Positions 4,991 through 28,224 of a DNA stretch of 41,951 nt are shown here, piece after piece. The stretch is from NCBI GenBank assembly GCA_000961845.1, contig LADZ01000037.1, forward strand, positions 1 to 41,951. The letters run 5' to 3'. The position numbers and the translations under genes are program-made. Source of the DNA: Flavobacteriales bacterium BRH_c54 (GTDB lineage Bacteria; Bacteroidota; Bacteroidia; Flavobacteriales_E; Vicingaceae). How positions within the stretch are numbered: position 1 is the stretch's first letter; the number at the start of each line of letters is the position of its first letter. The notes beneath the pieces are model-generated. The model saw only the letters and a list, made by a program, of their open reading frames with translations, ran no database searches and was not told the DNA's origin.

Positions 4991-5068
4991 CTGAAAAAAG
5001 AATTAACATGTAACACTTAGACTCATTTTTTACCTTTAAAGTTGCGTATCAAAGCAAATTTTATATTG

Positions 5069-5076
5069 TAACTTTG
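5069..5076 (+). promoter_or_regulatory. Candidate Bacteroidota -7 element TAACTTTG
   Basis: TAACTTTG matches the TAnnTTTG -7 consensus of Bacteroidota sigma factors. It lies about 118 bases before the carbonic anhydrase-like gene. No TTTG is seen at the usual 19-21 base spacing upstream, so support is moderate. A small inverted repeat, AACCTA (5156-5161) and TAGGTT (5169-5174), sits in the leader just before the start codon. Confidence 0.35.
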
Positions 5077-5194
5077 TATGAGGTATTTATTTTACTTATA
5101 AATCATTTTGCAATTTAGGAATTTTTGACATACTAAACAATGATTTACATCAACTAACCTATAAATGGTAGGTTTTAATATATAAACGGTAAAT

Positions 5195-5707
5195 ATGGCT
5201 TTAATAAAAAAACTAAACGACAAAGCTCCTGAATTTGGAACTGATTGTTTTTTCGCAGAGAACGCAACTATTATTGGTGATGTAATAATGGGAAATGAAT
5301 GTAGTGTTTGGTACAACGCGGTAATTAGAGGTGATGTGCATTATATCCGCATGGGCAACAGAGTAAACGTACAAGATGGAGCTGTAATTCATTGTACCTA
5401 TAAAAAACACCCTACTAATATTGGCAATAATGTTTCTATCGGACATAATGCCTTGGTGCATGGTTGTACTGTAAAAGACAATGTACTAATAGGCATGGGA
5501 GCTATTGTTATGGATGGTGTGGTGGTAGAAAGTAACACCATTATTGCTGCCGGAGCTGTTGTTACTCAAGGAACACAGGTGGAAGCCAACTGCATTTATG
5601 CCGGAGTGCCTGCCAAAAAAGTAAAAGAAATGAATAAGGAACTTTCAGAAGGAGAAATTAAAAGAATTGCCGAAAGCTATGTGATGTATTCGGGTTGGTA
5701 CAGGTAG
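5195..5707 (+). CDS. Gamma-carbonic anhydrase-family protein (left-handed beta-helix hexapeptide repeats)
   Basis: The 170-residue protein is nearly all hexapeptide repeats (IGDVIMGNECSVWYNAVIRGD...), which fold as a left-handed beta-helix trimer. It carries the gamma-carbonic anhydrase signature: Arg45 and Asp47 (IRGD), Gln60-Asp61 (NVQDG), and zinc-ligand histidines His66, His84 and His89 (VIHC, GHNALVH). The length and the close His84/His89 spacing fit the YrdA/CamH/PaaY branch. CO2 hydration is plausible because all ligands are present, but many relatives have no measured activity, so the substrate is uncertain. It is predicted to be cytoplasmic. It stands alone on the plus strand, divergent from the surface-protein operon. 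Confidence 0.85.
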   Translation: MALIKKLNDKAPEFGTDCFFAENATIIGDVIMGNECSVWYNAVIRGDVHYIRMGNRVNVQDGAVIHCTYKKHPTNIGNNVSIGHNALVHGCTVKDNVLIGMGAIVMDGVVVESNTIIAAGAVVTQGTQVEANCIYAGVPAKKVKEMNKELSEGEIKRIAESYVMYSGWYR

Positions 5708-5710
5708 GTT

Positions 5711-5748
5711 TCAAGTTCAAGGTTTGAAGTTTGAGGTTGAGGTTTGAA
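5711..5748. repeat. Degenerate heptad repeat (TTTGARG units), copy 1
   Basis: The intergenic DNA is built from near-copies of TTTGAAG/TTTGAGG. The same units, read on the other strand, recur at 7926-7963, and a shorter version at 13091-13121. It has no coding potential. Function is unknown. Confidence 0.6.
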
Positions 5749-5759
5749 AAAAGTTAATG

Positions 5760-5810
5760 GTTATTTGTTAATCGTGACAAACCAATAACTAATAACTAAT
5801 AACAAATAAC
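5760..5810. repeat. Inverted repeat with 7-base periodic right arm
   Basis: GTTATTTGTTA (5760-5770) and TAACAAATAAC (5800-5810) are perfect 11-base inverted arms with 29 bases between them. The right half is itself a 7-base repeat (taactaa twice, then taacaaa). It lies between the carbonic anhydrase-like gene and the BatA-like gene and could act as a weak transcript-end structure for the former. Confidence 0.5.
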
Positions 5811-5822
5811 TATTTATTTTTC

Positions 5823-5830
5823 TATCTTTG
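5823..5830 (+). promoter_or_regulatory. Candidate -7 promoter element TATCTTTG for the BatA-like gene
   Basis: TATCTTTG is an exact match to TAnnTTTG and sits only seven bases before the ATG at 5838. If used, the mRNA would have almost no leader. No clear TTTG -33 box is present at the usual spacing. Confidence 0.4.
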
Positions 5831-5837
5831 CCCTTAA

Positions 5838-7871
5838 ATGAAATTTGTTTATCCGGAATTTCTTTATGCCCTTTTTGCAATAGCTATCCCTATTGTCATT
5901 CACCTATTTAATTTCCGAAAGTTTAAAAAAATTTACTTCTCCAACGTTCAGTTTTTAAAAGAAGTAACGCAAGAAACCCAATCTAAATCTAAATTAAAAC
6001 ACTTACTAATCCTTATCAGCAGAATTCTAGCAATAAGTTTTTTGGTATTTGCTTTTGCTCAACCATACATCCCCACCAGCAGCGGAATAACTTCTCCTAA
6101 AAACAAAGTAGTAGGCATTTATGTAGATAATTCTTTTAGCATGGAAAGCACAGGAAATCTAGGTGCTTTGCTTGATGAAGCTAAACTTAACGCTGCTGAA
6201 GTAATAAATAATTACAATGCTTCCGATAAGTTTTTGGTTTATACCAATGCTTTTGCCTCAGGAGAATATCGTTTGCTTTCGCAAGAGCAGGCCATAGAAA
6301 AAATTGAGCAAATAGAAATTGTTCCGCAAACTAAAAACCTTTCTGCCATATATTCCAGAGCTACAGAAGGCATTAACAATGCAGATATTGCCAATAAATA
6401 TTTCTACCTGTTTTCCGATTTCCAAAAAACCATTAGCAACTTTAACGACTTGGAACAAGACAGTACCATTAATTGGTTGTTAATTCCCATAACCGGAAAT
6501 CAAACGGATAACTTATACATTGATAGTTGTTGGTTTGAATCGCCTACTCACTTGTTTAATCAGCAGGAAGAATTAAAAGCCATTGTAGTGAATAAAGGCG
6601 AAAAAGACGTGGAAAATATTCCTGTCAAATTATTTATCAATGAGCAATTAATTACCCCTACAAGTGTTTCCGTTAAAGCCAATGATAAAACTACCATCGC
6701 TTTTAACTACCAAAACAAACAACAAGGCATACAACAAGGGAAAATAGAATTACGTGACCATCCTGTTGTTACCGATGATGCTTTTCATTTCTCCTATCAA
6801 ATTGCTAGTCAGATAAATGTTTTAGAAATACACGATAAACAAGCTGCTGAAAGCAAGGCTATTCCTGCTCTTTATCAAACTGATAGTTTATTTAATTTTA
6901 TATCGGGAGCCATTGGTCAGCTAGATTATTCGCTGATAAAAACGGCTAATTTAATTGTACTAAACGAGCTTAAAGAACTGAATAGCGGATTGGTTCAAAC
7001 ACTAAAATCTTTTGTAGAAAATGGCGGAAGCTTGTTAGTTTTTCCTGCAGAAGAAATGAATTTAGAAAGCTATCAGTTGCTAACGAATGCTTTTCAGATA
7101 AATCCTTATTTAACCAACGATACTTCGTCATTAAAAGTAAGAGACATTAACTACGAACATCCTATTTTTAATAATGTTTTTGAGAAAAAAGAAGCTGAAA
7201 AACTAAACCTTCCATTGGTTAAAAATCATTATGCGTTGGCAGATTTTAATACCATTTTCAGAAGTGATGTATTAACGCTAAATAACGGCACCCCTTTTCT
7301 TAGCGATTTTAAAATCAATAAAGGACATGTTTACCTTTGTGCTTCGAGCCTAAACAAAACCGCTACCAACTTTGCCAATCATGCGCTTTTTGTTCCGGTA
7401 TTGTACAACATTGCTTTTTTAAGTCAGCCAACCTATCCAAATTATTTTATTATTGGAGAAAACAATGTCATCAATATCAACACCAATGTTAAAGACAATG
7501 TTTTCCATCTGAAAAATGACAACATGGAGATTATTCCAAAAATTAAAAGCGAACAAAATACTACCTCCATTTTCTTTGGCAACGAAATTACCACAGCAGG
7601 CAATTATTTGCTTAGCAACGAAACCATAGAAATGGGTATTGCTTTTAATTACAACAGAAAAGAATCTGATTTAGCCTGTTTAACCGAAAGTGAGCTAACC
7701 ACCCAACTAACACAGTACGGACTAAACGCCAACATTGTTAACGCTAACGAAGTTTCATTTAAGTCGGCACTAAACGAAATTGAATCAGGGAAAAAATATT
7801 GGAAAATTTGCGTTATTTTAGCACTTATTTTCTTAGCAGCAGAAATTGCTTTGATAAAATTGTGGAAATAA
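5838..7871 (+). CDS. BatA-domain membrane protein with von Willebrand A-like region
   Basis: The 677-residue protein starts with the aerotolerance-regulator (BatA) N-terminal domain: MKFVYPEFLYAL, a first membrane segment at about 9-25, the HLFNFRKFKKIYFSNVQFL motif, and a second segment at about 55-76. A VWA-like domain follows, with an intact DxSxS metal site at Asp97-Ser99-Ser101 (VDNSFSM). A large extracytoplasmic beta-rich middle region leads to a final membrane helix at about 655-675. The architecture matches the Bacteroidota BatA-domain family, not the short BatA/BatB proteins of the bat operon. No MoxR ATPase or other bat genes are nearby, so a stress role is only inferred from the family. 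It is followed by the dihydroorotase-family gene about 100 bases downstream. Confidence 0.82.
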   Translation: MKFVYPEFLYALFAIAIPIVIHLFNFRKFKKIYFSNVQFLKEVTQETQSKSKLKHLLILISRILAISFLVFAFAQPYIPTSSGITSPKNKVVGIYVDNSFSMESTGNLGALLDEAKLNAAEVINNYNASDKFLVYTNAFASGEYRLLSQEQAIEKIEQIEIVPQTKNLSAIYSRATEGINNADIANKYFYLFSDFQKTISNFNDLEQDSTINWLLIPITGNQTDNLYIDSCWFESPTHLFNQQEELKAIVVNKGEKDVENIPVKLFINEQLITPTSVSVKANDKTTIAFNYQNKQQGIQQGKIELRDHPVVTDDAFHFSYQIASQINVLEIHDKQAAESKAIPALYQTDSLFNFISGAIGQLDYSLIKTANLIVLNELKELNSGLVQTLKSFVENGGSLLVFPAEEMNLESYQLLTNAFQINPYLTNDTSSLKVRDINYEHPIFNNVFEKKEAEKLNLPLVKNHYALADFNTIFRSDVLTLNNGTPFLSDFKINKGHVYLCASSLNKTATNFANHALFVPVLYNIAFLSQPTYPNYFIIGENNVININTNVKDNVFHLKNDNMEIIPKIKSEQNTTSIFFGNEITTAGNYLLSNETIEMGIAFNYNRKESDLACLTESELTTQLTQYGLNANIVNANEVSFKSALNEIESGKKYWKICVILALIFLAAEIALIKLWK

Positions 7872-7925
7872 AAATGTGAGAATTTGAAGATGTGTAAATA
7901 TGAGAATTATTGAATAATCTGCATT

Positions 7926-7963
7926 AACCTCAAACTTCAAACTTCAAACCTCAAACTTTAAAC
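7926..7963. repeat. Degenerate heptad repeat (CTTCAAA/CCTCAAA units), copy 2, inverted
   Basis: This array of CTTCAAA and CCTCAAA units is the reverse complement of the array at 5711-5748. The two arrays therefore flank the BatA-like gene as inverted repeats. Confidence 0.6.
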
Positions 7964-7970
7964 TTACGAC

Positions 7971-9239
7971 ATGGACATACTAATCAAATCGGCAGTAATC
8001 GTTGACAACAACTCAAATTTGAATGGGCAAAAAATGGACATTCTTATTGAAAAAGGAATTATCGTTAAAATAGCTAAATCCATTAAAAATTCAGGGAACT
8101 ACAAGGAAATTTCCTATCCTGATTTGCACGTTTCTATTGGTTGGTTCGATTTTAGAGCTAACTTTTGCGACCCGGGAAATGAACACAAAGAAGATTTTAC
8201 CAGCGGATTAAAAGCTGCTGCTTTAGGTGGCTTTACAGGTGTTGTTGCCATGCCCGATACTTATCCAACTATCGATAGCAAATCCGGAATTGAGTATGTA
8301 ATTAACAAAACCGCCAATGCTATTGTAAATGTTTATCCTGCCGGATGTTTGTCTGAAAAAGCAGAAGGAAAAGAAATTGCCGAAATGTACGACATGCATA
8401 ATGCCGGTGCAATAGTTTTTACCGACAATAAAAAAAGCATAGAAAATCCAAGTTTGCTTACCCGAGCCATGCTCTACACCAAATCATTCAACGGGTTAAT
8501 AATGGAATTTCCTAACGAAAAAAATATTTTTAACAACGGACAAATAAACGAAGGAGTGGTAAGCACTCGACTGGGAATGAAAGGCATTCCGTCTTTAGCC
8601 GAAGAGCTGCAAGTGGCAAGAGCCATTTATTTAGCTGAATATTGCGATGCAGCGATTCACTTAACCAATATTTCTGCAAAAAAATCAGTAGAACTGATAA
8701 AACAAGCTAAGGCTAAAGGATTAAAAGTTACTGCCGATGTAAATTCTTACCACTTACTGCTAGACGAAACAGCTTTGGAAACTTTTGACAGCAACTACAA
8801 AGTGTTGCCTCCACTAAGAACCAAAGACGATCAAAAAGAATTGATTAAAGGACTGAAAGAAGGAACGATAGACATTATTTGCTCCGACCACACTCCCGAA
8901 AATATTGAAAACAAAAAATGTGAATTCGACCACGCAGCTTTTGGCATCATTAACTTACAGACTTCTTTTGCGGTTGCTCATACCGCCATTAAAAACAAAT
9001 TGCCCTTAGCCCATTTTATTGAGAAAATAACCGTTGCACCACGCCAATTACTGCACCTAAGCGTTCCTAAAATAAAAGAAAAAACAGCAGCCAACCTTAC
9101 CTTATTTAGCCCCAACAGCGAAACTAAACTTGCCATTAGCGATATAGTTTCTAAATCTAAAAACTCACCATTTATCGGTAAAAAATTAAACGGTAAAGTA
9201 TATGGAGTAATTAATAAAAATAAGGTGTTGGTGGGGTAA
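7971..9239 (+). CDS. Dihydroorotase-family protein, probably non-catalytic (PyrC'/PyrX-like)
   Basis: The 422-residue amidohydrolase aligns throughout with class I dihydroorotases (GFTGVVAMPDTYPTIDSKSGIEY, VFTDNK, SDHTPEN). The metal site is degenerate. The usual DxHxH is Asp60-Phe-Arg62-Ala-Asn64; the histidine of the HxED strand is replaced around Glu179-Phe180; the HxS histidine is Asn233. Only the acidic ligands, Asp152 and Asp306, remain. With all four histidines gone, hydrolysis of dihydroorotate is unlikely. Inactive dihydroorotases are known as structural partners of aspartate transcarbamoylase in some bacteria, and that is one possible role; pyrB is not in the window. A catalytic PyrC should exist elsewhere in the genome. 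Automated annotation will probably call this gene dihydroorotase. Confidence 0.85.
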   Translation: MDILIKSAVIVDNNSNLNGQKMDILIEKGIIVKIAKSIKNSGNYKEISYPDLHVSIGWFDFRANFCDPGNEHKEDFTSGLKAAALGGFTGVVAMPDTYPTIDSKSGIEYVINKTANAIVNVYPAGCLSEKAEGKEIAEMYDMHNAGAIVFTDNKKSIENPSLLTRAMLYTKSFNGLIMEFPNEKNIFNNGQINEGVVSTRLGMKGIPSLAEELQVARAIYLAEYCDAAIHLTNISAKKSVELIKQAKAKGLKVTADVNSYHLLLDETALETFDSNYKVLPPLRTKDDQKELIKGLKEGTIDIICSDHTPENIENKKCEFDHAAFGIINLQTSFAVAHTAIKNKLPLAHFIEKITVAPRQLLHLSVPKIKEKTAANLTLFSPNSETKLAISDIVSKSKNSPFIGKKLNGKVYGVINKNKVLVG

Positions 9240-9256
9240 AGAATTAGTTATTTTTA

Positions 9257-11038
9257 TTAAAAATATTTTTTATAAATATCTTCTCCCATTTTTCTATATT
9301 GACTAGATTTATATTGTTTAAAATTAAATTTATTAATGTTATTTAATTTCGAACTGTAATTCTTTGTCGTTGAAACTTTATTGTTTTCAATTAATAGTCT
9401 CAGTACGTTCAACATCCCATTAACAAAGGTTACTGTCAATAGACCTTTAGGATTACTTGGACTATATGTTTCCCATTGTTCTTTATCAAGGTTCATTTTT
9501 AGTGCAATTAATAAATCTCTAATTTTTTCTATGGAGAAGCTTATATATTCGTCAAGTAATTCAAACTCTTTATTGTCTTTTTGCTTTAATTTCTGCTTAT
9601 CAGAATGATTCCAAACCACATACATACTATCCTTTGCTTTTACATCTTCAATTTTCACCAAAGGCTTTAAACCAAAACTAACAATCGAAGCAGTTTTTAT
9701 TTTACCCTTTTCATACCAATATTGCTCAATCATATTTCCGAGTGGTCCGCTTTTATTCAAGCCTAATAATATTCTTTTTCCAATTGCAACAGTAGAAAAT
9801 GGGCTAATCATTAGTTCAATTTCTTGTCGAATTTGTGATGGAACATTTTTCTGATTTGAATTAATTTCTAAAAAAAGATTTGCCTCAAATTTTAGCCTTT
9901 GACTTTCTGTTTCATTTTCAGGGAATAATATTCCTGTAACAAGCAAATTTTGAACTTTTCTTAGTTCTGCAATTTTCTTTTCAAATTGATCATCCCCTTC
10001 GTGATAAGCATATGTTCTATGCTGACCATCTATTAAACCAATAATATTACAAGAATCATCAATTTCAATTCTTGTCGGAGATATTTCTGTTGAGTTGGCT
10101 CCTGTGAACTGACCATTTTTATCTATGTTTAAATGATTATCATTCTTATCATAAAGCTTAATTTTACTAATTGAAATTGTTGCAATTAAATTATTAATAA
10201 AAACTCTATGTTTTTCAGATAAATACTTTCTCATGCTTGAAATTTTGCTGGTTTCAAGCATACGTTGATAATGACCAACATTTTCAATATCTCGCCATCC
10301 ATTTTGTCGCAAAACATAAGATCTTCTCAGAAGAGATTCTGCATCAATATAAAAAGAAACAATTTTATAACCTTCATCAAATTTACTTTTTTCTTCAGGT
10401 AAAATATTGCCTTTAAAAGTTTGTGGTGTTCTAGAAGATGAACTTTTAATATTTAGACCAAACTCTTCAAATGGAATTTCAATAAAATCCATAAATTCAT
10501 ACTTGCTGGATTTTTTTATTGCTTTAGTTAGGCTTTTAAAGTATTGAACAATGTGGTAATCAAAAAATATTACTTTTTCTACTGCATTTTTATGTTCTTC
10601 CGAAATAGTTTTTTTAGAACAATATAGAATTTGTAATCTTAATTCATTTTTTGAATATTTCCCCTCAATATTTTCCTCGTGGTATTTTTTAAAACTTTTT
10701 AGTTTTTCTTCTTCCAATAAAAAATCTATAAATTTTCGCTTGTCAAAATTGACTTTATCATAAAATATTTTCTTCGCAAACAAATGATCTTTCGGATCGC
10801 CAATAGTGTACTCTACTAGTAAAATGACATTTTCACTTATGAAAACATCATCCATTTCTGTTTTTCGATTATCATATTCAAAATGCTTTCCATCTATATA
10901 TGGCAATCTTTGGAATCCAATATTCTTTAGAATAGTTGAGATTTCATTTCTTTGATCTCTTTTTTCTTTTCTTAAGGCTTTTTCTTGCAGAGAAAGTTTC
11001 TTTTTAGTTGTCTTTTTTTTAGATGCTTTTTTTGCCAT
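9257..11038 (-). CDS. DGQHR-domain (DndB-like) protein with a PD-(D/E)XK-like N-terminal region
   Basis: The 593-residue protein begins with a lysine-rich tail (MAKKASKKKTTKKK). Residues about 33-110 resemble a PD-(D/E)XK nuclease core: a helix, Glu61-x-Asp63-Asp64, then a hydrophobic strand ending Val-Glu76-Tyr-Thr (ENVILLVEYT), where the usual ExK lysine is Thr78. The C-terminal ~400 residues are a DGQHR domain: LIDGQHRTYAYHEG with the motif at 337-341, and FLEINSNQKNVP at about 389-400. DGQHR proteins include DndB, the DNA-binding regulator of phosphorothioation systems, and the motif resembles the nucleotide-binding loop of the ParB/sulfiredoxin fold. The methyltransferase gene lies nine bases upstream on the same strand, so the two form an operon. 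The gene ends 17 bases from the convergent dihydroorotase-like gene. A modification-linked sensing or restriction role is inferred. Confidence 0.8.
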   Translation of the reverse strand: MAKKASKKKTTKKKLSLQEKALRKEKRDQRNEISTILKNIGFQRLPYIDGKHFEYDNRKTEMDDVFISENVILLVEYTIGDPKDHLFAKKIFYDKVNFDKRKFIDFLLEEEKLKSFKKYHEENIEGKYSKNELRLQILYCSKKTISEEHKNAVEKVIFFDYHIVQYFKSLTKAIKKSSKYEFMDFIEIPFEEFGLNIKSSSSRTPQTFKGNILPEEKSKFDEGYKIVSFYIDAESLLRRSYVLRQNGWRDIENVGHYQRMLETSKISSMRKYLSEKHRVFINNLIATISISKIKLYDKNDNHLNIDKNGQFTGANSTEISPTRIEIDDSCNIIGLIDGQHRTYAYHEGDDQFEKKIAELRKVQNLLVTGILFPENETESQRLKFEANLFLEINSNQKNVPSQIRQEIELMISPFSTVAIGKRILLGLNKSGPLGNMIEQYWYEKGKIKTASIVSFGLKPLVKIEDVKAKDSMYVVWNHSDKQKLKQKDNKEFELLDEYISFSIEKIRDLLIALKMNLDKEQWETYSPSNPKGLLTVTFVNGMLNVLRLLIENNKVSTTKNYSSKLNNINKFNFKQYKSSQYRKMGEDIYKKYF

Positions 11039-11047
11039 ACCAAAAAT

Positions 11048-12313
11048 TTATAAGTAATCATTTTCATTTAAATCAACACCAATTTCACTAACAACTCTTA
11101 TTTTCGTAGAATAAAGGTCAGAATTTTTTACAAAAGAATATGTGTTAGTCTTTGTATATCCAAAATGTTTTTTTATACTAAATTTTTTAGAACCTAAAAA
11201 TTTAAATGTTGACTCAATACCAAATTTAGATAACGGAGCTTTATTAGTTAACACTTTTACTTCATCTAAAAAAATAGTCTTATCTATTTTTCCAATAATT
11301 TGATATTCAACGCGAAGTAGTTTATGCTTAAGTTTACTCGTTTCTTTTGGAGTAACAAAAATTTTAAAATTATCAAACTTTGTGTTTCTTTCAATATTAG
11401 TGACCAAAATACGTGCAAATTTTAGAGCTCTTAAATCAAGAATTTGTTTCTCAAAATCTCCTTGATCCTTATTTTGCGAGAATAAATCATACTCTTTTCT
11501 ATATTTTGAAAATGTCTTTTCTAAATATTCTTCGAACATAGAAATATATTTACTATTTAATTCAAATCCAATGTAGTTACGTTTCATATATGCAGATTGT
11601 GATAGAACTGTTCCACTACCTGCAAAAGGATCTAGTATATTATCATTCTCATCCGTGCTTATTTGAATCATTGTCGCAACCATATCTTGAGGTAATGGGC
11701 AGAAATGTCGAATGTATTCTTCACCCCAAGAACCTTGAGTTGGAATAGGATATTCCCATACTTCATCTAAAGCCTTTCCTTTGGGATTATATCTTTCTGG
11801 ATATTTTATCCACCACTTTTTTAATTGAGAAGTGTCATAAACTCTGACATTATCTTTATTTGATTTATAATTTATTGTTTTAGAGAAGAATAGTATATAC
11901 TCAAACTTTCGTTGCATAAAACCATTTGTTGACCAAGGAACTGTTTTGTCCTTTTTCCAAATAATTACATCTTGAAGCAACCAACCAACCTCTTTTAATT
12001 TGTTTGAAAGATCAAAGGGTAATGTGATAACTTGATTATTACGTTTAAACGTATCTATTATTATCCATAAAGTACCATTATCTTCTGTGATTTTAAATAT
12101 ATCTTTAAAAATTGATTGTAGATCATTCAAATAATCATCATAAGTTTGCCCATATCCAACTTGATTATCAGAATCATAATCCTTCATATCATAATAAGGC
12201 GGAGAAGTTATAGTAGTTTGGATTTTTATATCACTAGGAATAGTCTCTAAAATAGTTCTAGAATCTTTATTGTAAATTACATTTAATGAATTCTTTTTTT
12301 TCTTTGATTTCAT
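11048..12313 (-). CDS. Site-specific DNA methyltransferase, beta-class (N4-cytosine or N6-adenine)
   Basis: The 421-residue protein has the permuted beta-class order. Catalytic motif IV comes first (TSPPYYDM, SPPY at 37-40) and the S-adenosylmethionine motif I later (ILDPFAGSGTVLSQ, 227-240), followed by GFELN (249-253). SPPY is typical of N4-cytosine enzymes, but some N6-adenine enzymes carry it, so the base is not certain. The methyltransferase core ends near residue 270. The last ~150 residues are an extension I do not recognise, with several predicted beta strands. The N-terminus is lysine-rich, like that of its partner. It is first gene of a two-gene operon with the DGQHR protein and has its own consensus promoter. 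No separate restriction endonuclease gene is adjacent. Confidence 0.9.
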   Translation of the reverse strand: MKSKKKKNSLNVIYNKDSRTILETIPSDIKIQTTITSPPYYDMKDYDSDNQVGYGQTYDDYLNDLQSIFKDIFKITEDNGTLWIIIDTFKRNNQVITLPFDLSNKLKEVGWLLQDVIIWKKDKTVPWSTNGFMQRKFEYILFFSKTINYKSNKDNVRVYDTSQLKKWWIKYPERYNPKGKALDEVWEYPIPTQGSWGEEYIRHFCPLPQDMVATMIQISTDENDNILDPFAGSGTVLSQSAYMKRNYIGFELNSKYISMFEEYLEKTFSKYRKEYDLFSQNKDQGDFEKQILDLRALKFARILVTNIERNTKFDNFKIFVTPKETSKLKHKLLRVEYQIIGKIDKTIFLDEVKVLTNKAPLSKFGIESTFKFLGSKKFSIKKHFGYTKTNTYSFVKNSDLYSTKIRVVSEIGVDLNENDYL

Positions 12314-12383
12314 TTATTTGAAATACAGTTGTTTTTAAATTTTATCAACTAATTATACTATAAAATAGTGCTTTATTTTTCTC

Positions 12384-12414
12384 CAAACTTACATAACAAT
12401 AACAATTACACAAA
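12384..12414 (-). promoter_or_regulatory. Consensus Bacteroidota promoter of the methyltransferase-DGQHR operon
   Basis: On the minus strand, TTTG (12414-12411) is followed by exactly 19 bases and then TAAGTTTG (12391-12384). This is a full match to the Bacteroidota -33/-7 promoter TTTG-N19-TAnnTTTG. The expected start of transcription is a few bases downstream, leaving a leader of about 65 bases before the ATG at 12313. Confidence 0.65.
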
Positions 12415-12478
12415 ATATATAACCGAATAAATTACAATACTGTTTTGTTATCTAGGTATTTACCGCTACAGAAACAAA

Positions 12479-12495
12479 AAAAACTTTGAGTTTTT
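12479..12495 (-). terminator. Candidate intrinsic terminator after hemJ
   Basis: AAAAACT (12479-12485) and AGTTTTT (12489-12495) form a perfect 7-bp stem with a 3-base loop. Read on the minus strand, the stem runs into a tract of eight T residues. It lies just past the hemJ stop and would insulate the methyltransferase operon. The stem is AT-rich, so it is weak. Confidence 0.45.
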
Positions 12496-12527
12496 ATAAA
12501 CAGAAAATTTTCAATCCACACATCAAC

Positions 12528-13064
12528 CTACTTTTCTCTCATTTTTTTGTAAGCCCTGATGGCTAACATCAGCAAAACGCCAAAAAGCACAATACCTACC
12601 ACCCCCCAAACCCAACTCATGGCTTCTTTGAGGGTAACCAAAAACACAATGGCAAACAAAAAAACGGTAGCTACTTCATTCCAAATGCGCAATTTAAAAG
12701 AGGAGTACTTAATTTTATTCTGTTGCAATTGAACAAATATACGATGACACATAAAATGGTAAACATACAATGCCATTACAAAGGTAAGTTTAACATGCAT
12801 CCACGGTTGCGACAAATAATACCCGAAATTGGTATAGAGCAACCAACCTGCAAAAAAAGCGGTTAATATTGCCGATGGCCAAGTAATGCCATACCATAAG
12901 CGTCTGCTCATGATTTTATATTGTTCTTGCAAAATGGCTTTAGCACTTTCTTCTTTGCTTTCTGCTTCTACATGGTAGATAAACAACCGAACAATGTAAA
13001 ACAACCCGGCAAACCAAGTGACTACAAATATGATGTGTAATGCTTTTATGTATAATGGGTTCAT
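12528..13064 (-). CDS. hemJ: HemJ-like protoporphyrinogen IX oxidase (UPF0093/CopD-family membrane protein)
   Basis: The 178-residue protein is mostly membrane helices (about 5-25, 53-77, 84-107, 127-147 and 151-170). The N-terminus YIKALHIIFVVTWFAGLFYIVRLFIYH matches HemJ, including the conserved histidine at position 9 and the RLFIYH motif, and PWMHVKLTFV fits the third helix. HemJ oxidises protoporphyrinogen IX to protoporphyrin IX at the cytoplasmic membrane in bacteria without HemY or HemG. Many pipelines label these proteins CopD family. The gene stands alone; no other heme gene is in the window. A TACTTTTA sequence just upstream is a near match to a -7 element. Confidence 0.82.
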   Translation of the reverse strand: MNPLYIKALHIIFVVTWFAGLFYIVRLFIYHVEAESKEESAKAILQEQYKIMSRRLWYGITWPSAILTAFFAGWLLYTNFGYYLSQPWMHVKLTFVMALYVYHFMCHRIFVQLQQNKIKYSSFKLRIWNEVATVFLFAIVFLVTLKEAMSWVWGVVGIVLFGVLLMLAIRAYKKMREK

Positions 13065-13090
13065 GGCTGTAAAAGTAATATTTTTTTATG

Positions 13091-13121
13091 AGTTTAAAGG
13101 TTTGATGTTCGAGGTTTGAGG
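13091..13121. repeat. Degenerate TTTGAGG-type heptad repeat, copy 3
   Basis: A short array of the same type as 5711-5748 (gtttaaagg, tttgatg, ttcgagg, tttgagg) lies just upstream of hemJ. Confidence 0.45.
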
Positions 13122-20290: not shown

Positions 20291-22657
20291 TTACCTTTTC
20301 TTCAACACATTGAATTTTCGGATAAGTTCACTACCGTATTCATCAACAAGTGTTAACAAATGTTCTCCGGACGCTAATTGAATATCAATTTTATGTTCTC
20401 CTGTAGTTTGAGCAATAAATACATCATCAATATGCCAAAAAATGGTAGCATTAGGATTGGCATGAGCTACTTCAAAAATTACTTTACCTCTTGTACCATC
20501 TAATAATTTAGGGATAAAAACAGCAGTAAGATTTTCGGGGTAAATGATGCCCATTTTTACAGTAGTGTTTTCATAGCAATTATTTAATAATGGCGGAAGT
20601 GATTTGTAATTTGGATTTTTTGTCTTATAAAACAACTCCATAATAGGAGGCAATACCATCCATTTTTTAATTTGCATATCAGTTACTGAATAACATTCAT
20701 CATTCACACGAAATTGCTTACTTTTATCTAAATAAACCAATTTGTGGTAAGGACAAACCTTAGATTTTATACCTGAATTTGGAGCCCAAATGGTATCTGC
20801 TTTTTCACAATTATTTCCATACAGATAGCCACTTTTGGAACATACCGCCAACTGAGATAAGTTGTTATATGGAGGTTCAAACCAAGTTGTTTGCGGTAAT
20901 TTTTTAAATACTTCAAATAAGATGGGCGCAGCAACCAATGTACCTGTTAACCCCGGACGACCTTCTCCATCAGCATTTCCTACCCAAACGCTTACGGTAT
21001 ATTCCGGAGTAGTTCCTACCGCCCAAGCATCTCTATGTCCAAAGCTGGTACCTGTTTTCCAAGCTACTTTTTTAGAAGAAGTAAAATGTTCCCAGCCTTT
21101 TTCCTCTCTCGGACGATGAACATTTGCTAATATCTCATAAGTTTGCCAAATGCTGGAAACATCATATAAATAATATTGTTTCAACTCCTCTTTTTGAGAC
21201 AGTACACTATCATTTGCTATAAAATAAGGCATACGATAATCGTTGGTATTATACTGATAATCATATTTTCTAAAATTGTTTAATACCCTCGACCAACTGG
21301 AATAAACGCCATTTAACTCCCACAAATTGGTTTCTGCTCCTCCTAAAATAATAGACAATCCATAGTGATTTACCGGTTTTTTTATAGTGGTAAAGCCTAA
21401 TTTTTGTACGTTGTCATAGAATTTTTCTAACCCATAGCTACGTAATAATTTTACTGCCGGAATATTTAACGAGCGTGTTAGCGCATTACTTGCAGGTACA
21501 GCACCATCATAAGTTCTATCAAAATTTTGTGGTGCGTAACCCGAAATTCTTGTGGGAACATCAGGCACCAATGCATCAGCTAATAATTCGCCTTCATTAA
21601 ACAACGCTCCATACAAAAAAGGTTTTAAAATACTTCCAGAACTACGAGGAGCAGTAATAATATCTACCTTAACACCCGACTCTTCATGCTTACAATCGGA
21701 ATTTCCGACATACGCCAATACTTTTCCACTGTTTACTTCTGTAACTAAAATAGCCAAATTATGTACTTCATTTTGGCTGAGTAAACGATGATAATTAGAA
21801 GCAATTTGATTCAGTTGTTCTTGTAAGTGTAAGTTGACAGTGGTTTGAATGTTTTCTCCCTGATGTCCTTCTTTAATTAATCGGGTGAGTAAATGGGGTG
21901 TAATTTGAGGAAGCGAATGCGGTTTTGTTGGTAATTCTTCTGCTTTAGCCAATTCAGTAGTTTCAGCATCTATAATACCTTTTAGCTGTAATTTATCCAA
22001 CAAACGATTACGTTTTTTGAGTAGTAATTCATGATTTTTCCCGGGATAAATTAATGCAGGCGCATTAGGTAATACTGCCAATGTAGCTGTTTCTCCCCAT
22101 GATAATTTATCAGGTGAACGTCCATAATAACGCCACGCAGCTGCATCTAACCCTACTACATTTCCGCCAAAAGGAGCGTGAGACGTATAAAGTGTCAAGA
22201 TTTCTTTTTTGCTTTTAGAGATTTCTAGCCTTGTTGCCAAAATCATTTCATAACTCTTTTCCAAAATGGTTCGAGGTTGTTGGCGAGATAAACGAATTAC
22301 CTGCATCGTAATAGTACTCCCTCCACTTTTTATCTTTCCTGAGGTAATATTTTGCCACAATGCTCTTAGTACAGAAACAGGATTTACTCCTGGGTGATAT
22401 TCAAAATATTCATCTTCGAAATGAATAATGCACTGTTTAAATTTTTCAGGAACAACAGAATTTTCGGGAAATCGCCATTGACCATCCGTTGCAATACTAG
22501 CAGCTAACAAATTACCATTGGCATCTTCAAGAATAGTACTGGTAGGTTGTTTAAATAATTGCTTGGGAAGGAGAAAAGCATAAAAAGTTAATAGAACAAT
22601 GCTTATGATTACTAACTTTTTATGCTTTAAAATAATTTTTTTAATGTAATTATACAT
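20291..22657 (-). CDS. pbpC: Penicillin-binding protein 1C (glycosyltransferase/transpeptidase)
   Basis: I use the ATG at 22657, two bases after the stop of the upstream macroglobulin gene. An upstream in-frame ATG at 22681 would add eight residues overlapping that gene. Of the 788 residues, about 10-30 form a membrane anchor. The glycosyltransferase 51 domain shows HFEDEYF (Glu81) and GGSTITMQ. The transpeptidase domain shows SILK (Ser342, Lys345), SLN (396-398) and KTGTS (534-538). A PBP1C-type C-terminal domain follows. The protein polymerises and cross-links peptidoglycan at the periplasmic face. Pairing with an alpha-2-macroglobulin gene is a known arrangement for pbpC. Confidence 0.93.
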   Translation of the reverse strand: MYNYIKKIILKHKKLVIISIVLLTFYAFLLPKQLFKQPTSTILEDANGNLLAASIATDGQWRFPENSVVPEKFKQCIIHFEDEYFEYHPGVNPVSVLRALWQNITSGKIKSGGSTITMQVIRLSRQQPRTILEKSYEMILATRLEISKSKKEILTLYTSHAPFGGNVVGLDAAAWRYYGRSPDKLSWGETATLAVLPNAPALIYPGKNHELLLKKRNRLLDKLQLKGIIDAETTELAKAEELPTKPHSLPQITPHLLTRLIKEGHQGENIQTTVNLHLQEQLNQIASNYHRLLSQNEVHNLAILVTEVNSGKVLAYVGNSDCKHEESGVKVDIITAPRSSGSILKPFLYGALFNEGELLADALVPDVPTRISGYAPQNFDRTYDGAVPASNALTRSLNIPAVKLLRSYGLEKFYDNVQKLGFTTIKKPVNHYGLSIILGGAETNLWELNGVYSSWSRVLNNFRKYDYQYNTNDYRMPYFIANDSVLSQKEELKQYYLYDVSSIWQTYEILANVHRPREEKGWEHFTSSKKVAWKTGTSFGHRDAWAVGTTPEYTVSVWVGNADGEGRPGLTGTLVAAPILFEVFKKLPQTTWFEPPYNNLSQLAVCSKSGYLYGNNCEKADTIWAPNSGIKSKVCPYHKLVYLDKSKQFRVNDECYSVTDMQIKKWMVLPPIMELFYKTKNPNYKSLPPLLNNCYENTTVKMGIIYPENLTAVFIPKLLDGTRGKVIFEVAHANPNATIFWHIDDVFIAQTTGEHKIDIQLASGEHLLTLVDEYGSELIRKFNVLKKR

Positions 22658-22659
22658 CT

Positions 22660-25600
22660 TTACTGCACTACTTCCACCCATTTACCACCTTTTTTGGCAT
22701 TGATTTCATTGTCGTACATGGCTTCACAATAAACTGTCGGTAAATAAAACTTACCCAAATACGAAGCATTTAGCAACACCCTAAATCGTTTGGTTTTGTT
22801 TTTATCAATATCAAAATATAGGTAAACTCTGTCATCACGAATATCTTGATAAGTGGGAACATCAGCAATTTTATTGGTCTCTACTAAATCCATACGGGTA
22901 TTTCTAATTTCCCAACCCGATGGAAAAATTTGATGCAATGCCATTTCTCTGTAATGGGTTCTTATTCCCGGATGTTGGAAAGTAACCTCTGCAATAAAGT
23001 CCATACCTTGTTTCAATTGGTCAACACTTATTTCATTTTCATTCATGTCGAGGTATTTCACATTCATTTTCAGGTCATTTTCAGCAGAACTATTATCTCC
23101 TTCCAATGGAATTCCTTTTAAAGTAAGACTAATAAACAAAGTTTGGTTGGTGTTGTTTTTAATCTTAATGCTCTCTTCTTTTCCGGCTTTTACAGCGAGT
23201 TTATCCTGAGCAATACTTGCAGTAGTTTTTACATTTTTTGCTTTGTCGTTATTGTTGTAAATATCGAAATTCAGCTCAGAAGGTGTTCCTGTAACCCCAA
23301 CAAATTTAGCAATAGCCATTAAACTATAAGCAGTGGTTTGTGTACTAAACCATCTTTCTGAACCTAATTGTTTAGCAAGGTCTTTCAGTACTTTTTGTCC
23401 TGTAGTTTTTTCTCCCATTAAGGTTAACGTTTCCAAAATCATGGCTTGGTCACGTTCTGAACTTCCATACGTATAACTTAATTCTTTATACGATTCAACC
23501 GTAGTTGAAATGTTTTCAATTAATTTTTTAGCTACGCTTGATTTTCCTGCTAGTTCATAAGCAGCCGCCAAACGCCATTTAGCCGAAACTGATAATTGCT
23601 TCATCTCTTTCATTCTATTCATAGCTCCTAATGCAGGCTTTTTGGCTAAGGCTAATGTATATAAACGATAGGCTTGCATTAATTCATCGTTTTGACCATA
23701 GTAGTAATAGTTGTTTTTATTGACACCGCGAGACTGCCAAGCATTTGCCAATTTGGTTTGATATTTAATCCAATTAGATAAAAATCCTGTCGGCAAACTA
23801 TAACCCTTTGCTTGAGCTTCTAACATAAAGTGTCCGGCATAACTACTTCCCCAGTCGTTGGTATTGGTATTTCCTTGCCAATAACTTAATCCACCATCAG
23901 ACAATTGGAATTTCTTTATTTTATTAATTCCTTCTCGGATGTTAAATTCAATTTCGGCTTTTTGTTTTTGGTCTAAATCCAATAAACTGCTTAAATACAA
24001 TTGAGGAAAAACGCCCGATGTGGTTTGCTCCAAACATCCATGAGGATATCGGATTAAATATTGCAAACGCTTTTCTAAATTAATTGGAGGAATTTTTGAA
24101 ACTTCAATAGTCCCTTTATTTGTTCCTCTCATTCCTATAGGCATATAAGTAGATTCCCAAGTTTTTCCGGGTTCTACCATGGCATTAATTACCGAAGTAA
24201 TTTCAGGGTTTGCCGGCTTAACATTAATTTCAAAATCGTAAGTAGCGATTTCATTACCACTTTTAGCGGTAACTTTTACTTTTCCAACACCTAAGGCTTC
24301 AGCAACTTTTAAATCAAAATTTACCACTTCATCACCTTCGCGTGAGAAAGTAAGTTCTTGTGTTTTACTTCCTGTAATTTTAAGTAAACTGTTTGTTTCT
24401 ATTTTTACGGAAACTTTTTTTACTTTTTTGTCCATGGCAAAAACAGTTACAGGCAATTTCACTTCTTCATTAGGACTTAATGTTCGAGGCAAGGTAGCCA
24501 ATACCATTAAAGGCTTTTTTACCGGAGTGGTTTTTTCTGCTGATCCATAAGCTCCTTGATTACCTGTTACTACCATTGTCCTTACCGAACCAACATAATT
24601 AGGCATTTTAAACGTATGTGTTTTTGAACTTCCTTTTTCGATAGTAAAAGGTCCTGCATAAATTACCACAGGTTTAAACCTATTGGCTTTCGGACCACCT
24701 TTGGCATTAATGTAATCATCCCCACCTAAAGCTAGTAACCCTGCCATTTCTCCCGAAAAAGCATTCATCACATACTTGTACATATCCCAAGTTTTAACAC
24801 CTAAGGCTTCTCGAGCATAAAATGTTTCCCATGGATTAGGCGTTTTAAATCGGGTTAAGTCCAACAACCCATCATCCACAATAGCAATGGTGTAAGTCAT
24901 TTTTTTACCTTCTTGTTCACTTACCGTTACTTTAAAATCACTTTCAGGGGCTAATTCTTCCGGCATTTTAATAACAGGATTAAGATGTGTGGCTTTATCC
25001 TCCACAGCAATAGACTGAATGCCATACAAACGTATAGGCAAGTCATTTTCCACTTGGTTATGTGGTTGAATCAACGTTACATTTACATAAACGTTAGGAG
25101 CCATATCGGCAGTAGCTTTAAACGTAAAAGTGTTGTTATCTGCAGAAACATCTACCCATTTTTTCTCAATAACAGATGATCCTGACTCTACACTTAGCAA
25201 TGCTCTTCCTGTTTTTGCATTAGGTAATTCAATTTTTACTTCATCACCTACTTGGTACACTTTTTTATCACAACTAAAAGAAAGCATTTCGGCACCACCC
25301 GGATTATCTCCTGAATTGCTGTCCCACCAACCGGAATAAGACATATAAAAAGTTTGTCCGGTACTATGTCCGGTAACAGGATCGGTAACAATTATCAATT
25401 TTCTTCCCCAATAATCTCTATCAAATTTCATATCAAAAATGGCTTTTCCATTAGTGGTATTGATGTACTCTTCTTTGATTAAATTTTTAGAACGATTGGC
25501 AACATACCTTGCTAAATCATAATTATCTGAGCGTTCCCACCACCAACTCCAATACACATCATAAATTTCAATTTTTACTTTCTGACGGCTGACAGGCTTG

Positions 25601-28224
25601 CCATCTTCATCAACCGTAACTATAGGAATTAAGTTAGATTGATCTGAAAACAAGGCTCCATTCCAACCTTTACCTTCGGGAACTTTAACTCCTACATAAC
25701 CTCTATATGGAGAATAATCTATCGCTTGTCTGTCTACGCTAAACTCACCACCATTTTCAAACGCTCTAATTTTAAAATTGGCTTTTAACATCCCCGGAGC
25801 CACCTCTTTTTTTACATTAATTTTAGGGTAAATGGTAGCTTTTCCTTCGCTATTTAGTTTACCGTCAAAAATCATATTTTCTTCTGAATCAAAACTTTTA
25901 GCGGGATTATCAAAAACATAATCCGGGTAATCTTTAAAAGTTGTTTTAGATTGCGTTAAAATCAGTTCTACATCTGTTTTAATATTTCCGGCAATGGCTC
26001 CATGCAACCATTTTACTTCCATATCACCAGTCATAGGTTGATTATCTTTAAGGACTTGTGTCTTAAAATCGAGATTTATTTTTAGTCTATTAGGTTTTAT
26101 AGTTTCAATTTTTAAGGTTTTGGAAAATGAAGAGCCACCTACTTTAATTTTTGCCAACCAATTTCCTGTGGGAGCATCATCATCGGTTTTAGTTCTAAAA
26201 TCATAAAAACCATTTTCGCCTGTTGTCTTAATTTTGCGTGAATAGAGTTGGTTTTCTGGAGTATAAAGCTCCATTACCACTGGATGGTTTACCGGCAGCA
26301 CCCCTAATTTATCTTCTAAAATAAAAGATACAAAAAGAGAATCGCCCGGACGCCAAACACCTCTTTCTCCGTAAATATATCCTTTCACTCCTTTTTTAAC
26401 CGTTGCTCCGCCTACATCAAACATACTTACTGATAGTGCAGAACCATCATCCAAACGTAAATAACCAACCTGCTTGTCTTGTTTAGCAACTAACAAGAAA
26501 GGTTTTTTGTTTAAATCAATGTCCACCAAACCATCACTGTTAGTGGTAGCTTTTTTCATTAATTGGTTTTGGAAATTGAAAATTTCTATACTAACATTAG
26601 AAAGTGGCTGCGTAGTTTTAATATCTGTTACCGCAACTGTAAGGGTTTTACCGTTGCCACCTTTGGCAATAATTCCTAAGTCTGAGGCAAATACATTTTT
26701 GGCTACTTTTCGGTTATTTCTAGAGTAATAAGATTTGCTGCAAGGGTTATCTCTTTCATTCCAATTATAATCATCATCATAATAGTAATAATCATCGTCA
26801 TAATAATAGTAATCACTTGGTTGATCATAACTTAATGATTCACGCTCATCTTCTAAATCAATTTCTTCAAGTTCATCAGCGGTATTTTCGCAAGGATAAA
26901 GGGAATGTTTTTTACGAAAAGAAAGCTCTACTCTGTAAATAGCTCCCGGTTCAGCATTAATTAAGGAGGATAAATCAATAGAAAAAGTATTCCAATTTCC
27001 ATAATCTACAGCTTTAGTAGCATTTAATTTCATTTCCGATTGGTGTACAATCCTACCCACTCGTTTCATTTCTCTGTTTCCGTTAATTTGGTTTACTTGA
27101 AGGAATTGAGCTACATTATTCTCAAATATTTTGATGATTTTTACATCTACCGCACTTAAATTCACTGCTTTAAATGGGAAAATTAGTCCATTGGTGCTTG
27201 GCAATATTACCCCTTCGCCAATTAGTTCAACATTAGGTTTCATGCTAGTAAAAGAAATGCTTTTTTCAAACCCTTCAATTAGGGGATAGTCAATGGAATT
27301 TTTTACTGTTTTATCGATAATAATTTTTGACGTACCCATTAATCTTTTTTCAGGATAGGCATTTAAGGTATTTTCATCAACAGCTAAACGCAAGGCTTCT
27401 CCCGATTGCAAATACACTAATCCGTTAAGGTCTTGAGTAGTACTAATAGGGTCAGAAAAATAAATAACAATGGTTTGTTCCGGTTGTTGAATAACTTTTA
27501 AATCCATCACTTTAAATTCTCCTAAAGGTGGAATTTCAATATTTTGCTCCCCTTTTTCTTCCGATTCAATTGCTTCTCCATTCCATTCTAAAACCACTTC
27601 GCCTCTTTTTTCTGTTCTATTAATACTGTCGATAGAGAAAGTATGTAGTCGTTCTCCAATACCATGATTCCAGGAAATGGTTAATTTTTTTCCATTTTGA
27701 GTTGCAGAAATTGTTTTTTCTAAATTCTCAGCATTAGCAAAATCGGCAGTAGTAAGTTCGTAGGTAATTTGCTGCCATTTTAGTGAATTATTATCATAGG
27801 CCTTAACTCCAGAAAATTGTAAGTTAATACCTTGTTTATAAGTCTCAAAATCAAAATAAAAAGTTGCTAAATCTTTTTCAACTTCTACAATCTCTGAAAG
27901 ATAAAATTCTGCTTTAAAGTAAGTGTTGGAAGGGAGCTGAACTTTTGGTCTAAATTCAATAGTAGTTTCATCTAACCAATAGGCTTCACCTTCAATTTCA
28001 GGACTAAAATCAAATAAATCTTCATCAATAACTTTATCATATTGAGCGTGAACAGAAGGCTCAGCTAAACTAATTTTTATGGTAGATTGATTGGAAATGA
28101 TACCTGAGGTAAATCCAGCTATATAAGCAATAAAAGCAGGGTTGATTGGTTCATTTCTTTTATCATTATCACATCCAACGGTTAAAATAAGTAAAGAAAT
28201 AACAATTAGTATTATTTTTCTCAT
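22660..28224 (-). CDS. Bacterial alpha-2-macroglobulin lipoprotein with CLEQ thioester (YfhM-like)
   Basis: The 1854-residue protein has a lipoprotein-type signal ending in Cys18 (LTVGC). Macroglobulin (MG) beta domains follow, with the MG2/bait portion in the middle. The thioester segment GCLEQTT is at Cys1397-Glu1399-Gln1400, inside the alpha/alpha toroid domain. An intact Cys/Gln pair predicts a reactive thioester that can trap attacking proteases. The family is thought to guard the periplasm together with PBP1C, whose gene follows two bases downstream. Around residues 465-490 lies an unusual Tyr/Asp-rich tract (DYYYYDDDYYYYDDDY). The length is near the Bacteroidota norm and longer than E. 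coli YfhM (about 1650). Lipid anchoring is predicted from sequence only. Confidence 0.92.
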   Translation of the reverse strand: MRKIILIVISLLILTVGCDNDKRNEPINPAFIAYIAGFTSGIISNQSTIKISLAEPSVHAQYDKVIDEDLFDFSPEIEGEAYWLDETTIEFRPKVQLPSNTYFKAEFYLSEIVEVEKDLATFYFDFETYKQGINLQFSGVKAYDNNSLKWQQITYELTTADFANAENLEKTISATQNGKKLTISWNHGIGERLHTFSIDSINRTEKRGEVVLEWNGEAIESEEKGEQNIEIPPLGEFKVMDLKVIQQPEQTIVIYFSDPISTTQDLNGLVYLQSGEALRLAVDENTLNAYPEKRLMGTSKIIIDKTVKNSIDYPLIEGFEKSISFTSMKPNVELIGEGVILPSTNGLIFPFKAVNLSAVDVKIIKIFENNVAQFLQVNQINGNREMKRVGRIVHQSEMKLNATKAVDYGNWNTFSIDLSSLINAEPGAIYRVELSFRKKHSLYPCENTADELEEIDLEDERESLSYDQPSDYYYYDDDYYYYDDDYNWNERDNPCSKSYYSRNNRKVAKNVFASDLGIIAKGGNGKTLTVAVTDIKTTQPLSNVSIEIFNFQNQLMKKATTNSDGLVDIDLNKKPFLLVAKQDKQVGYLRLDDGSALSVSMFDVGGATVKKGVKGYIYGERGVWRPGDSLFVSFILEDKLGVLPVNHPVVMELYTPENQLYSRKIKTTGENGFYDFRTKTDDDAPTGNWLAKIKVGGSSFSKTLKIETIKPNRLKINLDFKTQVLKDNQPMTGDMEVKWLHGAIAGNIKTDVELILTQSKTTFKDYPDYVFDNPAKSFDSEENMIFDGKLNSEGKATIYPKINVKKEVAPGMLKANFKIRAFENGGEFSVDRQAIDYSPYRGYVGVKVPEGKGWNGALFSDQSNLIPIVTVDEDGKPVSRQKVKIEIYDVYWSWWWERSDNYDLARYVANRSKNLIKEEYINTTNGKAIFDMKFDRDYWGRKLIIVTDPVTGHSTGQTFYMSYSGWWDSNSGDNPGGAEMLSFSCDKKVYQVGDEVKIELPNAKTGRALLSVESGSSVIEKKWVDVSADNNTFTFKATADMAPNVYVNVTLIQPHNQVENDLPIRLYGIQSIAVEDKATHLNPVIKMPEELAPESDFKVTVSEQEGKKMTYTIAIVDDGLLDLTRFKTPNPWETFYAREALGVKTWDMYKYVMNAFSGEMAGLLALGGDDYINAKGGPKANRFKPVVIYAGPFTIEKGSSKTHTFKMPNYVGSVRTMVVTGNQGAYGSAEKTTPVKKPLMVLATLPRTLSPNEEVKLPVTVFAMDKKVKKVSVKIETNSLLKITGSKTQELTFSREGDEVVNFDLKVAEALGVGKVKVTAKSGNEIATYDFEINVKPANPEITSVINAMVEPGKTWESTYMPIGMRGTNKGTIEVSKIPPINLEKRLQYLIRYPHGCLEQTTSGVFPQLYLSSLLDLDQKQKAEIEFNIREGINKIKKFQLSDGGLSYWQGNTNTNDWGSSYAGHFMLEAQAKGYSLPTGFLSNWIKYQTKLANAWQSRGVNKNNYYYYGQNDELMQAYRLYTLALAKKPALGAMNRMKEMKQLSVSAKWRLAAAYELAGKSSVAKKLIENISTTVESYKELSYTYGSSERDQAMILETLTLMGEKTTGQKVLKDLAKQLGSERWFSTQTTAYSLMAIAKFVGVTGTPSELNFDIYNNNDKAKNVKTTASIAQDKLAVKAGKEESIKIKNNTNQTLFISLTLKGIPLEGDNSSAENDLKMNVKYLDMNENEISVDQLKQGMDFIAEVTFQHPGIRTHYREMALHQIFPSGWEIRNTRMDLVETNKIADVPTYQDIRDDRVYLYFDIDKNKTKRFRVLLNASYLGKFYLPTVYCEAMYDNEINAKKGGKWVEVVQ

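Follow-up and report, generated by a model that had tools for sequence, protein, structure and literature searches.

What is the role of a gene pair that joins a DNA methyltransferase to a DGQHR-domain protein, and that no Pfam, NCBIfam or PADLOC model names? The question is raised by a stretch of 41,951 nucleotides from Flavobacteriales bacterium BRH_c54 (assembly GCA_000961845.1, contig LADZ01000037.1, positions 1 to 41,951), here called the window. Between 9257 and 12313, on the minus strand, a methyltransferase gene (M) is followed by a gene for a DGQHR protein (R), with 9 bases between them. From the recurrence of the pair, its mobility, its predicted folds and their conservation we read it, with slightly better than even confidence, as a mobile two-gene modification and restriction-like defence module with R as the effector. 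R would then be a putative nuclease that binds a nucleoside triphosphate (NTP), senses modification and acts against phages or plasmids.

Both open reading frames (ORFs) lie where a first-pass annotation, made from the letters alone, had placed them (Table 1), and its naming of the two proteins holds. M is a beta-class methyltransferase: it matches PF01555 with 146.4 bits against a cut-off of 26.7 (1.6e-42), and motif IV (TSPPY) stands ahead of motif I (DPFAGSG). A C-terminal extension is found in the long type of the enzyme (417-440 amino acids) and is absent from the short type (288-320 amino acids) of other loci. The DGQHR domain of R is assigned by TIGR03187, with 64.5 bits against a curated cut-off of 58.85, and 14/14 family members match this model at E <= 0.01. 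With PADLOC (2023), M matches 61 models, the best 25 of the 61 being generic MTase_II, orphan MTase or MTase_III, and the sole match of R is DpdB (6.8e-06).

The pairing is not confined to the window. We compared 19 distinct loci of the R family (the window, L003-L009, L011-L013, L015, L042-L045 and L051-L053), after dropping L014, which holds the same system as Akkermansia phage Chantilly, and the duplicates L054/L055, L001, L002, L016-L020, L076 and L077. A methyltransferase is present at all 19, as direct neighbour in 17 and with one or two genes between in the other 2. In 15 of the 17 direct neighbours both genes share a strand, M comes before R and -1 to 25 bases separate them. The genes are convergent in phage Chantilly, and in L053 R comes first and its partner is a 733-amino-acid DUF1156-like methyltransferase. 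The partner was called by Pfam at 4/19 loci (the window, L008, L012 and L053) and by BLAST at the others, with L003 and L018 of the same set called by reading their ORFs. Two loci hold further genes between M and R. On a Spirosoma plasmid (17 kb, with phage-like genes; L008:8413-10511) M, a BglII/BstYI-family endonuclease and R form an operon, with R reaching the end of the record. In genome G583 (L043:9136-15168) the order is M, a GHKL ATPase (REase_II, a restriction endonuclease model, in PADLOC), a 300-amino-acid protein that has no Pfam match, R and a 248-amino-acid protein. Other neighbours are a DUF4145 protein (PADLOC PD-T7-4) in L053 and a PADLOC PDC-M28C match in L044.

Chance co-location was rejected on the contrast between this linkage and 23 other DGQHR loci of Bacteroidota, 18 of which have no beta or D12 methyltransferase match within three ORFs. 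The D12 enzymes of the control belong to three loci of a long sister family described below, where they are adjacent, to L102, where D12 is a neighbour, and to L083, where it lies one gene away. The control covers 22 of the 25 genomes with a DGQHR match (G000 and G347 hold the R family and G358 was left out), together with L104 from the class profile search, and its locus L101 is cut by a contig end. Its scan used two small home-made hidden Markov models, the D12 model being built from the control loci L083, L087 and L104; it missed L102, which Pfam found, and could have missed others. The reverse control gave the same picture: close relatives of M (E <= 1e-40) occur in 3/395 class genomes, and all three hold R. 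The identities of M and R also co-vary over 17 pairs (Mantel r 0.55, 0/5000 permutations as high; L004 and L053 left out, L008 in with a partial R), to which common descent contributes. More distant M proteins (33% identity) are found in haloarchaeal plasmids, within other multi-gene loci, and no DGQHR protein is annotated in the stretches fetched; in two such plasmids, L108 and L109, the locus also holds an AAA ATPase and a further DNA methyltransferase.

In the window the pair forms a discrete, AT-rich insertion. The GC content of 9240-12527 is 26.8% against 34.7 +/- 2.2% in 15 further coding sequences from the window. The flanking genes are those first annotated, an amidohydrolase/dihydroorotase-like gene (7971-9239) and a UPF0093 gene (12528-13064) by Pfam scan, the latter of which we take to be hemJ. 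Comparison with close relatives, which the first-pass annotation had proposed, was informative at this site. The flanking stretches 5001-9273 and 12532-13121 of the window align with the sister genome G665 at 93.6% and 97.8%, respectively; G665 has ~40 bases where the window carries 3.3 kb. Genome G540 has another gene at the same junction, for a 287-amino-acid DUF4357 protein (L047:7958-8821), and this pyrC-like/hemJ junction may be a small hotspot. The site was compared in five relatives; in three of them (L048-L050) only the hemJ side aligned, which leaves them uninformative for the junction. The N-terminus of the G540 DUF4357 protein looks GIY-YIG-like by eye.

M and R together are a recurrent, horizontally mobile unit. 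The closest relatives of R in genome contigs are in Aequorivita (80%), a Marinilabiliales metagenome-assembled genome (MAG; 78%) and Bacteroides neonati (69%), a spread that leads us to infer transfer of the cassette from lineage to lineage. R is also rare: a single-sequence search found it in 2/395 phylum genomes, its own included, and a profile search in 7/395 class genomes, 5 with the family proper and 2 with a distant sister. Carriers are chromosomes, three plasmids, a phage (Chantilly) and viral contigs, the viral share being inflated by the choice of viral collections for the search; viral scans queried with L044 and with the window M gave no relative. An integrase lies near the pair in Chantilly, L015 and L042, and by eye in L051 too. 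Other neighbours are HipA in L042, AbiJ/Abi_C in L004 and, in L005, a DUF5712 gene that is presumably a mobilisation gene; genes outside the pair were judged by eye, with a Pfam scan on some only. The first-pass suggestion of an undescribed modification-sensing or defence system fits the copies on a phage and on plasmids and those near integrase, HipA and Abi genes, and as a function it stays putative. In the MAG L004, codon 219 of R is an in-frame stop and the M frame is open, which in this one case is the direction of loss expected to be tolerated for restriction-modification. Separately, the Phyllobacterium DGQHR gene (L006:9875-11701) is overlaid in PLSDB by a predicted lmrP resistance gene, which looks like a false prediction.

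What kind of protein is R? The predicted structure of residues ~15-190 suggests a PD-(D/E)XK fold, and the nuclease-like N-terminus of the first-pass annotation can be upheld as a predicted fold. AlphaFold2 models were made from 11 rows, with a mean predicted local distance difference test score (pLDDT) of 81.6 for whole R and 84.3 for residues 1-212 alone, and the predicted secondary structure contains the alpha-beta-beta-beta-alpha-beta core of the superfamily. In VIA-align against the PDB the N-terminal model was aligned to AF1548 (1y88; Z 9.7, root-mean-square deviation 2.6, 112 residues), FokI (Z 8.6, 3.4, 141 residues), N.BspD6I (Z 8.5) and the R.BspD6I small subunit (Z 8.4), with Cdn1, BstEII (7.7), Can2, PspGI, Bse634I, HamA, SduA and others below. 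From their titles we take most of the matches to be PD-(D/E)XK nucleases. The fold is visible by structure alone: searching PDB sequences with a profile of the N-terminal part gave nothing credible, and Pfam gave no match over cut-off for this part in 11 members.

The residues around the predicted site are strongly conserved. In 19/19 rows there is no variation at F66, N70, E76, T78, H85 and K89, position 61 holds E or D throughout, and position 63 is D in 18/19 (L008, whose record ends inside R, and L004, with its stop, enter these counts with the N-terminal part only). The usual triad D...(D/E)-x-K is thus found as D63...E76-x-T78, with T for K in all rows. H85 and K89 lie on the next helix, and R may have a variant site that uses K89 or H85 in place of the lysine; we favour this because both are invariant and because the sister family has K or R at the site. 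E76, H85 and K89 stay invariant among proteins as little as 25-30% identical. In one pairwise comparison, with Aequorivita, the nuclease-like part has nonsynonymous and synonymous divergences (dN and dS) of 0.112 and 1.035, and it looks to be under purifying selection.

For residues ~214-396 the model suggests a ParB-CTPase fold. VIA-align matched residues 214-396 to ParB-type structures at Z 5.3-6.6, with Z 5.3-6.4 over 93-98 residues for ParB, PadC, Noc and KorB. We accept the fold despite these weak scores because the DGQHR assignment and ParB-like Foldseek matches among viral structures (E 5e-4 to 2e-3) agree with it. Four of the viral matches have E <= 0.001, one of them named an occlusion protein, and the weaker matches include proteins named ParB-like and GmrSD-N. 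The QR, DGQHR and FxxIN motifs are invariant in 17/17 rows that reach them. A DndB-like protein other than R bound ATP and GTP (PMC12704722).

A related arrangement exists in the long sister family, DGQHR proteins of 760-787 amino acids (L087, L090 and L104), each with an adjacent D12 methyltransferase. They are co-linear with R across both its nuclease-like domain and its DGQHR domain (hhalign E 1.1e-18; E 1.1e-4 and probability 57% for the N-terminal part alone). They differ from R in the class of methyltransferase, in a longer C-terminus and at the position of E76-x-T78, which reads T-x-K, Q-x-K and E-x-R in L087, L090 and L104. A long DGQHR protein also matched 30 plasmid records, and the four examined held two long members and two short DGQHR proteins, the short ones with no annotated methyltransferase near. 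In the plasmids L112 (pNL1) and L113 (Agrobacterium) a long DGQHR protein lies near a short one, a radical S-adenosylmethionine (SAM) protein and an ATP-binding protein, of the GHKL type in L113. These loci may belong to a further DNA modification system built on this effector. An epidemiology paper counts a DGQHR gene and a dpnIIA methyltransferase among those that mark the same clades of Mycobacterium abscessus massiliense, with one figure panel cited for both, and in the parts consulted does not present the two as a pair (PMC9248903); they may be such a D12 and long DGQHR pair. In one phylum sample, a small hydrophobic-looking protein (165-210 amino acids) is encoded immediately upstream of the short DGQHR proteins of L083, L084, L085 and L086, and in L083 the D12 methyltransferase precedes both.

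A mechanism that fits these data is that M marks the DNA of the host or of the carrying element at a short motif and that R is the effector. R would cut through an N-terminal nuclease of the PD-(D/E)XK type whose site is the variant [E/D]61-x-D63...E76-x-T78, with the invariant H85 and K89 as candidate replacements for the lysine. The ParB/Srx domain may bind an NTP and work as a switch or clamp, and cutting would be licensed on DNA that lacks the mark of M. In this form the mark-and-cut model of the first-pass annotation is backed by the recurrent mobile pair and by the predicted nuclease and ParB-type folds, and it is strained by the missing canonical lysine and by the separate restriction factors in 2/19 loci. 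Several observations weigh against it. With T78 in place of the lysine the domain could be a non-cutting, DNA-binding version, and D63 is N in L053. The call of the fold depends on VIA-align Z values of 8.4-9.7 in the best eight rows and on the nuclease majority of the list, in which RNA polymerase subunits and one mutase chain also appear lower down; by the tool's own notes, a Z under 8 may mean merely a common arrangement. Foldseek against the PDB found no match at E <= 0.001 for either model (whole R and residues 1-212). Because the Spirosoma BglII/BstYI enzyme and the GHKL protein of G583 stand between the two genes, R may not itself be the cutter. The R of G583 is 53-55% identical to the window type (the window, G347, Aequorivita, B. 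neonati and G664), but its M is only 25% identical to the window M; this is awkward if R needs to read the same motif as M, and either R may owe its specificity to M or it may be an accessory. In the sister family, two plasmid members have no annotated methyltransferase alongside, in plasmid gene tables that are incomplete.

The replaced lysine can also be read as the sign of a dead, DNA-binding domain in an R that is a nucleotide-responsive, DndB-like regulator of M, the pair then being an orphan methylation or epigenetic unit. R is related to the Dnd DGQHR proteins, of which DndB is a repressor (PMC12704722), and the restriction factors of the two exceptional loci would fit a regulator too. 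Yet M comes first and R follows it in 15/19 loci, and in Chantilly the two converge; the invariance of E76, H85 and K89 at 25-30% identity exceeds what is expected for DNA binding alone; and the sister family has K or R at the site. We regard a regulator as unlikely. The same exceptional loci raise the possibility that R serves a larger restriction system as an accessory subunit or sensor and adds NTP-dependent activation to it, the cutter of that system lying elsewhere or being optional (BglII-type, GHKL). M with a BglII/BstYI endonuclease and R in Spirosoma, M with a GHKL ATPase, a 300-amino-acid protein and R in G583, the GHKL ATPase seen again near the long DGQHR protein in Agrobacterium, and the DUF4145 (PD-T7-4) gene of L053 and PDC-M28C match of L044 beside the pair would all suit such a role. 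It is nonetheless a rather improbable one, with nothing between M and R in the other 17 loci and an insert in the window that consists of two genes only, although at some loci, whose outer neighbours were judged by eye and scanned in part, a cutter may lie close by.

Since many carriers are a phage, viral contigs and plasmids, one may also think of self-protection or counter-defence of a mobile element, in which M hides its DNA and R helps M to load or protects the DNA, without any attack. A bare two-gene chromosomal insert also occurs, however, the viral share is inflated by the viral collections searched, and a nuclease fold is not required for such a task, and we hold this to be very improbable.

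The reading of M and R as a modification and restriction-like module brings it close to several known systems. GmrSD, which restricts modified DNA, joins an HNH nuclease to a ParB/Srx domain, and it shares with R the ParB/Srx-type domain, the DGQ(H/Q)R, QR and FxxxN motifs and the tie to a nuclease (PMC4619093). R differs in its PD-(D/E)XK-like N-terminus in place of HNH and in a methyltransferase linked in 19/19 loci, and membership in GmrSD was ruled out as the window R has no Pfam match to DUF262 or HNH/DUF1524 at E <= 1. DndB has been presented as a repressor of the ParB superfamily that may also have nuclease or NTPase roles (PMC10853773). It is also described as an ATP-dependent repressor of the dnd operon. 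The DGQHR domain is common to R and the Dnd proteins, and 14/14 members match TIGR04172; the window R scores 33.1 bits against a cut-off of 450 and has no match to PF14072 (DndB) at E <= 1. This score and the lack of a dndC hit exclude Dnd membership, and the nuclease-like domain and methyltransferase partner also set R apart from DndB. DpdB of the 7-deazaguanine DNA modification system likewise shares the DGQHR domain and is the only PADLOC match of R, and it was excluded by NF041060 (20.9 against 300 bits); the partner and the nuclease-like domain differ here as well. Type II restriction-modification of the FokI/BspD6I type resembles the pair in its linked methyltransferase and in the PD-(D/E)XK-type fold, which in R is predicted. 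R departs from it in a ParB-type NTP-binding domain, in the displaced catalytic lysine and in that cutting is only putative; we know of no ParB-type NTP-binding domain in ordinary type II enzymes.

A survey of the ParB-CTPase fold gathered PF02195/TIGR00180 proteins and tallied their fused Pfam domains, and reports fusions with HNH and with methyltransferases as well as a DndB-like protein that binds ATP and GTP (PMC12704722). R would probably have been missed there, because it has no match to PF02195 and no N-terminal Pfam family over cut-off. A description of M and R as a system was not found in the open-access literature, a scope that leaves out most subscription journals and preprints, nor in the available parts of PMC10853773, PMC12704722, PMC4619093, PMC12839542, PMC9248903, PMC12757443, PMC5306136, PMC3226654 and PMC10333322.

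If the module reading is true, a nuclease, a ParB-type nucleotide switch and an interchangeable modification enzyme would form a distinct architecture by which self and foreign DNA are discriminated, intermediate between classical restriction-modification, GmrSD and Dnd/Dpd. A group of hypothetical "DGQHR domain-containing" proteins would gain a function, some apparently orphan methyltransferases would be explained, and one could test whether ParB-type nucleotide switches act outside DNA segregation. A bolder option, possible but doubtful, is that the pair is a restriction system whose PD-(D/E)XK domain is gated by a ParB-type NTP clamp, not by a helicase or translocase, R loading on DNA and switching with NTP and the mark of M deciding whether the domain acts, and that the R chassis is a general reader and cutter of modification joined to several enzymes. 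Its partners would be at least two beta-class methyltransferase types and a DUF1156-like methyltransferase and, in the sister family, D12 and possibly a radical SAM enzyme.

Table 1. Features of the methyltransferase-DGQHR locus in the window
Feature	Position	Strand	Basis
R, DGQHR protein, 593 amino acids, putative effector	9257..11038	-	ORF; TIGR03187 64.5 bits, over cut-off; related loci
M, beta-class N6_N4 DNA methyltransferase, 421 amino acids	11048..12313	-	PF01555 1.6e-42; TSPPY at residue 36, DPFAGSG at 228
Predicted PD-(D/E)XK-like domain, R residues 1-212	10403..11038	-	AlphaFold pLDDT 84.3; VIA-align; residue counts in 19 rows
Predicted ParB/Srx (DGQHR) domain, R residues 213-400, with QR (258-259), DGQHR (337-341), FxxIN (389-393)	9839..10402	-	TIGR03187; VIA-align; motifs
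Helical C-terminal region, R residues 401-593, no assignment	9260..9838	-	AlphaFold secondary structure
M C-terminal extension, ~residues 271-421	11051..11503	-	PF01555 match ends at residue 261; length comparison
Whole insert relative to sister genome G665 (~40 bases there)	9236..12534	.	Window aligned by blastn to L046 and L047
Promoter-like element, Bacteroidota type (TTTG-N19-TAAGTTTG)	12384..12414	-	Exact match, 70 bases before M start

The first-pass annotation had also given the operon a promoter of its own and had stated that dnd, brx, endonuclease and integrase genes are missing; the first statement stands in part, the second as far as the searches below reach. A Bacteroidota-type element does lie 70 bases ahead of M (we take the consensus to be TTTG-N19-TAnnTTTG), but such matches in the window are at the chance level (3 observed against a mean of 3.87 expected). 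Sigma-70 matches in 9200-12600 equal the shuffled level (22 against 22.4), and the sigma-70 promoter was dropped as independent evidence. The DndC model has no match in the own genome (0/1), DndD and DndE not being searched for, and integrase, brx and endonuclease families did not appear in a Pfam scan of 10/27 window ORFs of >=120 amino acids, the other 17 being unscanned. Elsewhere in the window, at 20291-28224, a bacterial alpha-2-macroglobulin gene (1854 amino acids) adjoins a gene for a transglycosylase/transpeptidase penicillin-binding protein with a BiPBP_C domain.

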